A stretch of 64,000 nt of DNA, taken from Echinarachnius parma (lineage: Eukaryota > Echinodermata > Echinoidea > Clypeasteroida > Echinarachniidae). The stretch spans positions 1-64,000 of the forward strand of contig JBAMJV010001315.1 of the NCBI GenBank assembly GCA_037951105.1, read 5' to 3'. The position numbers and the translations under genes were made by a program. This document shows positions 31,680 through 49,976 of the stretch, in pieces (position 1 is the stretch's first letter; each line of letters starts with the position of its first letter). Under the pieces are notes generated by a model. It was given only the letters and a program-made list of their open reading frames with translations, did not search any database and was not told the origin of the DNA.

Positions 31680-31711
31680 ATGGCCTCCAGACAAGTCCAT
31701 GTCGAATACTG
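31680..31711 (+). CDS. SELENOW: Selenoprotein W exon 1 (coding part)
   Basis: Ten codons (MASRQVHVEY) plus TG, the first two bases of the catalytic Cys codon. The donor GTAAGTGTG starts at 31712. Intron 1 is 10,208 bp. Confidence 0.85.

Positions 31712-49976: not shown

Follow-up and report, generated by a model that had tools for sequence, protein, structure and literature searches.

A probable diverged and truncated member of a duplicated SelW2/MIEN1-type selenoprotein gene pair in Echinarachnius parma

Results

Gene structure and family membership

The window, that is, the whole 64,000-nucleotide stretch analysed here, comprises bases 1-64000 of contig C1314 (119067 long) in a genome of 1.2 Gb and 14790 contigs. 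An earlier note on this DNA had described a selenoprotein W-family gene split into four tiny exons; the exons lie at those positions, have those sizes and join in phase, and every intron is GT-AG (Table 1). Splicing yields a frame with a single in-frame TGA and a product of 79 residues, MASRQVHVEYCGSUQPGYLELKNMIESEVPGVEVSGEEGRPDSFEVTLNGKVLYSWLTTGIKPVFRELVQAIRDYQGDP, whose start codon stands in the context GAAATTATGGC. The redox motif CxxU is present as Y-C-G-S-U, placed by alignment opposite the EYCEPC of MIEN1, and the C-terminus is YQGDP, with no CaaX box. Intron 1 also contains a TAG trinucleotide array of about 150 copies (38860-39308).

Table 1. Coordinates of the gene and of adjoining features in the window
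Feature	Position	Strand	Remarks
MITE-like insertion, 952 bases, 13-base inverted ends (AAGCCAGTTCGTA)	30594..31545	.	absent from haplotype contig C12741
TATA-bearing segment, repeat part	31547..31617	+	no counterpart found next to the paralog
Coding exon 1, MASRQVHVEYC, ends TG|C	31680..31711	+	32 bases; same in C12741; 30/32 bases in common with paralog C7484
Coding exon 2, in-frame TGA of CGSU, and YLELK	41920..42011	+	92 bases; same in C12741
Coding exon 3, DSFEVTLNGKVLYSW...	47645..47721	+	77 bases
Coding exon 4	49938..49976	+	39 bases; 4-base gap relative to the paralog puts TAG in frame
MIEN1-like tail remnant, out of frame	49977..49996	+	by alignment to the paralog; 21 paralog bases including the CaaX Cys codon absent
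SECIS-like element	50616..50694	+	ATGA at 50625, unpaired AAA, TGAT on the 3′ side, extra apical stem

The comparison of the spliced product with Pfam Rdx (PF10262) that the earlier note had proposed gave a clear match (E 7.8e-12, 45.7 bits, cut-off 22.6). TIGR02174 matched at 50.2 bits against a cut-off of 34.2, with a query in which one residue was altered (G for D), and a search of PDB chains with the window protein returned human MIEN1 (2.7e-10) and mouse SelW (1.1e-5). In a tblastn comparison of MIEN1 and SelW fragments with the window before splicing, in which TGA was translated as Cys, exon 2 ranked first, with 30.8 bits for SelW and 26.6 for MIEN1, above the best matches from all 20 first-order random sequences (largest 24.3); the exon 3 scores, 21.9 and 19.2 bits, fell within the range of those 20 sequences, and neither exon 1 nor exon 4 emerged as such. 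The Rdx family model run over the whole genome at E 0.001 had zero matches, the window included, presumably because single exons are too short, and a MIEN1 query against the genome matched only exon 3 of the paralog described below, at E 1.04. Among the bacterial and archaeal genome contigs scanned, 203 stretches fitted a pattern and none was confirmed as a relative.

Exons as short as these could in principle be strung together by chance, and exons 1 and 4 were not recovered singly in a genome search with the window protein; given the Rdx E-value and the recurrence of all four exons, in unchanged phases, at a second locus, we consider a chance assembly vanishingly improbable.

For both copies the phmmer score is higher with MIEN1 than with SelW, so that a gene of the SelW2/MIEN1 (Rdx12) type is more likely than one of the SelW1 type, a tentative assignment drawn from similarity to MIEN1 and SelW only; the pairwise identity of the window copy, 44% to SelW and 33% to MIEN1, blurs the subgroup. 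Elsewhere in the genome, a SelW1-like exon (VTGYFEVEVNGSLVHSKK) was found on contigs C4255 and C4484 as weak matches (E 0.10 and 0.45), and a simple pattern search of 10 kb of each revealed no CxxU exon near it. A third weak match to SelW, on C4060, was read as well and did not resemble an exon of that gene.

A second locus with the same exon phases and the same UGA codon

The strongest evidence that we are dealing with a duplicated selenoprotein gene comes from a paralog on contig C7484 (117660-133242, minus strand), where four exons have the same phases, the TGA occupies the same codon and a SECIS follows. Contig C7703 is a likely haplotype of that locus (aligned pieces 83-98% identical), and the two versions of the paralog protein differ at one residue, G or R. 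The paralog protein, MASRQVQIEYCGGUGYYPRFRELQDMIKSGVKGAEVSGKRGRQTSFEVTLNGQVLYSKLKTGSFPDMKEIVQAIHDYKGEGPVETVTKGEAGCTIL, scores 74.4 bits with Rdx, carries a CaaX box (CTIL) at its C-terminus and can be aligned over its full length with human MIEN1 (CVIL), from which we predict a Sec-containing, prenylated MIEN1-like protein. Between positions 31615 and 51461 of the window, through the introns and the 3′ UTR, collinear alignable pieces connect the window with C7484; possible further pieces would extend this chain to 28.0-52.4 kb, and there are many additional repeat matches that are out of order. The other haplotype of the window itself is C12741, whose main pieces are 98.0-99.3% identical and which has identical exons 1 and 2 but ends before exon 3.

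Compared with the paralog, the window gene has a 6-base gap (two codons) directly after the TGA in exon 2, leaving three residues between the second redox residue and the aromatic residue ahead of helix 1, where the paralog, MIEN1 and SelW all have five. In exon 4, the 4-base gap brings a TAG into frame after YQGDP and shortens the protein, and 21 paralog bases with the codon for the CaaX cysteine are missing 3′ of that exon. The Rdx match and the paralog uphold the assignment to the selenoprotein W family that the earlier note had made; its word "complete" is not right, because two codons after the Sec, the exon 4 frame and the CaaX Cys codon have been lost. We therefore regard the window gene as probably a diverged, truncated member of a duplicated SelW2/MIEN1-type selenoprotein gene pair.

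SECIS element and decoding of the UGA

About 640 nt separate the stop of the window gene from the SECIS-like hairpin. Scanning both strands of the window by consensus and fold, for a TGA/GA pair around a stem with unpaired AA, left 37 SECIS candidates (19 plus, 18 minus), the most stable of which, with its TGA at 50626, is this one (-19.9 kcal/mol; next -14.5). The fold z-score of the 106-base region is -2.33, a value equalled by 5 of 200 shuffles. With Rfam SECIS_1 the element scored 16.8 bits (E 0.58, calculated over 121 bases and 4227 families), short of the gathering score of 35, in an alignment that covers the ATGA, AAA and TGAT of the site with zero pairs marked as non-standard. Rfam at gathering scores found nothing in the whole window, and among the 16 matches up to E 5 in 49900-52500 there was no SECIS. 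The homologous element of the paralog did better (27.0 bits, E 0.00094, one pair marked as non-standard), also below the gathering score. A genome DNA search with the 201-base SECIS region matched only the window locus and C7484; C7703 ends 20 bases 3′ of exon 4. The copies differ at 9 of 80 positions within the SECIS and at 93 of 588 in the rest of the 3′ region, so conservation of the element is not significantly higher (p 0.32). The SECIS proposed earlier is thus present as a hairpin with a better-scoring homolog, and would form part of the mRNA of the window gene.

Searched with a tRNA-Sec model, the genome gave 11 matches, one of them over the cut-off (78.8 vs 47 bits), in a setting where all 14 control genomes match at that E-value and 5 of the 14 exceed the cut-off; ARAGORN calls the over-cut-off match tRNA-SeC and assigns it the anticodon TCA, so the genome is equipped to decode Sec.

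If the UGA were an ordinary stop, a 13-residue peptide or nothing would be made, and the SECIS score under the curated Rfam threshold in both copies would fit such a gene. We judge this highly improbable: the paralog has UGA at the same codon along with the better SECIS, a tRNA-Sec gene is present, and CxxU has been described for SelW, SelW2 and SelV (PMC3316567). That the UGA of the window gene would be read as Sec, with the help of a SECIS, is supported most strongly by the paralog's shared codon, exon phases and SECIS.

Upstream region and putative mobile DNA

The TATA box mentioned in the earlier note exists (TATATAAAAG, 31570-31579), but it falls within a repetitive segment that the paralog does not share; alignment with the 5′ region of the paralog begins at 31615. 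Leaving aside its own locus and haplotype, the segment matches 38 other places among the best 40 of 649 candidates, at 90-94% identity. All six copies that we fetched read TATAAGGCGC and continue into other sequence, and none of the six has the exact TATATAAA of the window. We take this TATA-bearing repeat for a mobile element. Directly upstream of it in the window haplotype is the MITE-like element, flanked by an apparent AT target duplication; over its final ~168 bases it has 38 other matches of 99-100% identity among the best 40 of 1523 candidates. Because this 952-base element is missing from the other haplotype, it has probably been mobile recently.

Several other features of the surrounding sequence may be recorded. 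An insertion at 22126-27315, absent from C12741, contains minus-strand ORFs of 446 and 1112 codons that resemble those of a non-LTR retrotransposon, and minus-strand ORFs of 536 and 392 codons at 4666-7406 look like the endonuclease/reverse transcriptase of a second non-LTR element (both named by eye). An apparent unit of about 2 kb is repeated three times in tandem at 55500-61000, with the same 22-base array at 56110, 58127 and 60150. Tandem arrays of a 15-base unit (TGCTCCGCCGACAAT and complement) occupy 61540-61890 and 63265-63541, and each strand has open frames there. In the mitochondrial COX1 of this genome, compared with the bovine gene, TGA lines up with Trp (6/6), ATA with Ile, Val or Leu (9/9) and AAA with Asn (1/1), a usage that we take to be the echinoderm code; the gene order is presumably that of sea urchins and sea cucumbers, and the host is in all likelihood an echinoderm.

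Divergence of the two copies

Of the aligned bases, 47 of 240 in exons and 209 of 1191 in noncoding DNA differ between the two copies. For the protein, dN is 0.257 and dS 0.190 (dN/dS 1.35), and over 77 codons the differences fall 18, 16 and 13 on the first, second and third positions, with the expected third-position excess absent; there is therefore no visible purifying selection on the protein. Nor is there a significant deficit of indels in the exons (2 per 240 bases vs 23 per 1191 in noncoding DNA; P 0.16 and 0.41).

Exons 2 and 3 have changed faster than three of the adjoining intron ends (41/169 vs 33/258 bases differ, p 0.003), a set that was picked post hoc and contains splice signals; the start of intron 2 does not enter the comparison. 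Measured against every noncoding block compared, the p value is 0.043, and for nonsynonymous sites alone it is 0.017 (adjacent intron ends) or 0.21 (all noncoding blocks); synonymous sites do not differ from noncoding DNA (p 1.0). Outside the adjacent set, the end of intron 3 differs at 44/126 bases, above every exon, and the start of intron 1 at 34/160.

These figures bear on whether the window copy is a young duplicated pseudogene, with the paralog doing the work and the exons and SECIS persisting because too little time has elapsed. We give this reading serious weight, somewhat short of an even chance. It would account for the similar divergence of exons and noncoding DNA, for the frame-breaking 4-base gap and 21-base loss in exon 4, for the two codons lost beside the active site and for the lower Rdx score of the window copy (45.7 vs 74.4 bits). 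Against it, the window copy retains an intact start, UGA, Cys and set of splice sites, and its frame holds as far as exon 4. When neutral decay was simulated from the paralog (20000 runs, first 75 codons, half of the pair divergence), the start, UGA, Cys, frame and splice sites were all kept in 0.8% of runs, rising to 2.2% with a halved indel rate and falling to 0.005% at full divergence; these figures overstate constraint, because the gene was noticed for being intact. A further point against decay is that, at the 30 columns where the copies differ, SelW agrees with the window copy 13 times and with the paralog once, and MIEN1 with the window copy 6 times and with the paralog 5 times. These matches imply drift in both copies, and the paralog is therefore not simply the conserved one.

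Discussion

Most probably, a SelW2/MIEN1-type gene was duplicated with about 20 kb or more of genomic DNA, producing two copies. The window copy would be transcribed from near the TATA box within the repeat and its message spliced to 79 codons, the UGA being read as selenocysteine by way of the SECIS, SBP2, eEFSec and tRNA-Sec. We expect this to yield a small protein of the thioredoxin-like Rdx kind whose redox pair is Cys-Gly-Ser-Sec. For the paralog, prenylation at Cys-Thr-Ile-Leu and a membrane location like that of MIEN1 are predicted; MIEN1 itself is tethered to the inner plasma membrane through geranylgeranylation at its CVIL (PMC3527542, PMC6738349). The window copy, because its CaaX box is lost, should be soluble, and its loop after the Sec would be two residues shorter.

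There is, in our estimation, about an even chance that the window copy still makes protein, and function and early decay seem to us about equally likely. It may even have been neofunctionalised, with a promoter whose TATA is supplied by the repeat, the CaaX anchor lost and the Sec loop two residues shorter, turning a membrane-bound Sec-MIEN1 into a soluble redox protein; positive selection of that kind would give the faster change of exons 2 and 3, and yet we think this unlikely.

A Sec-containing CaaX relative of MIEN1 beside an anchor-less sister copy would amount to a natural test of the roles of Sec and anchor. If the window copy is expressed, it is a selenoprotein gene that has outlived its duplication with a promoter from repetitive DNA; a decaying copy would be an ordinary duplicate, around which annotation should take care. 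In the partly covered literature on SelW with prenylation or CaaX, on selenoprotein W in sea cucumbers and on echinoderm selenoproteins, we found neither a prenylated SelW2 nor this gene, which does not imply that they are absent from it. A count of selenoproteins in six invertebrates lists SelW in every one (PMC3473315), and a review mentions raised expression of selenoprotein W in regenerating brittle stars (PMC8718600).

Among known systems, SelW2 is a selenoprotein in fish, frog and elephant shark, its Cys relative being Rdx12 (PMC3316567), and also occurs in flatworms and Trichoplax (PMC3828610). By their description, the SelW2 selenoproteins of these two papers resemble the window copy in belonging to the Rdx family, in having a CxxU encoded with UGA and in having a SECIS; unlike them, the window copy has 79 residues and lacks two after the Sec. 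Human MIEN1 (Rdx12, C17orf37; PDB 2LJK) is the best solved relative of both copies, and the alignment of the paralog reaches its last residue, CTIL on CVIL. MIEN1 is a prenylated, membrane-anchored protein with Cys at the position of the SelW2 Sec (PMC6738349, PMC3316567); it likewise differs from the window copy in its Cys, and in its CaaX tail, which the window copy does not have. Mouse SelW (SELENOW, PDB 2NPB) shares the Rdx family with the window copy and, in its native form, CxxU (PMC3316567), whereas the solved chain has Cys at the Sec site; as a match to the window protein it is weaker than MIEN1, with the E-values given above.
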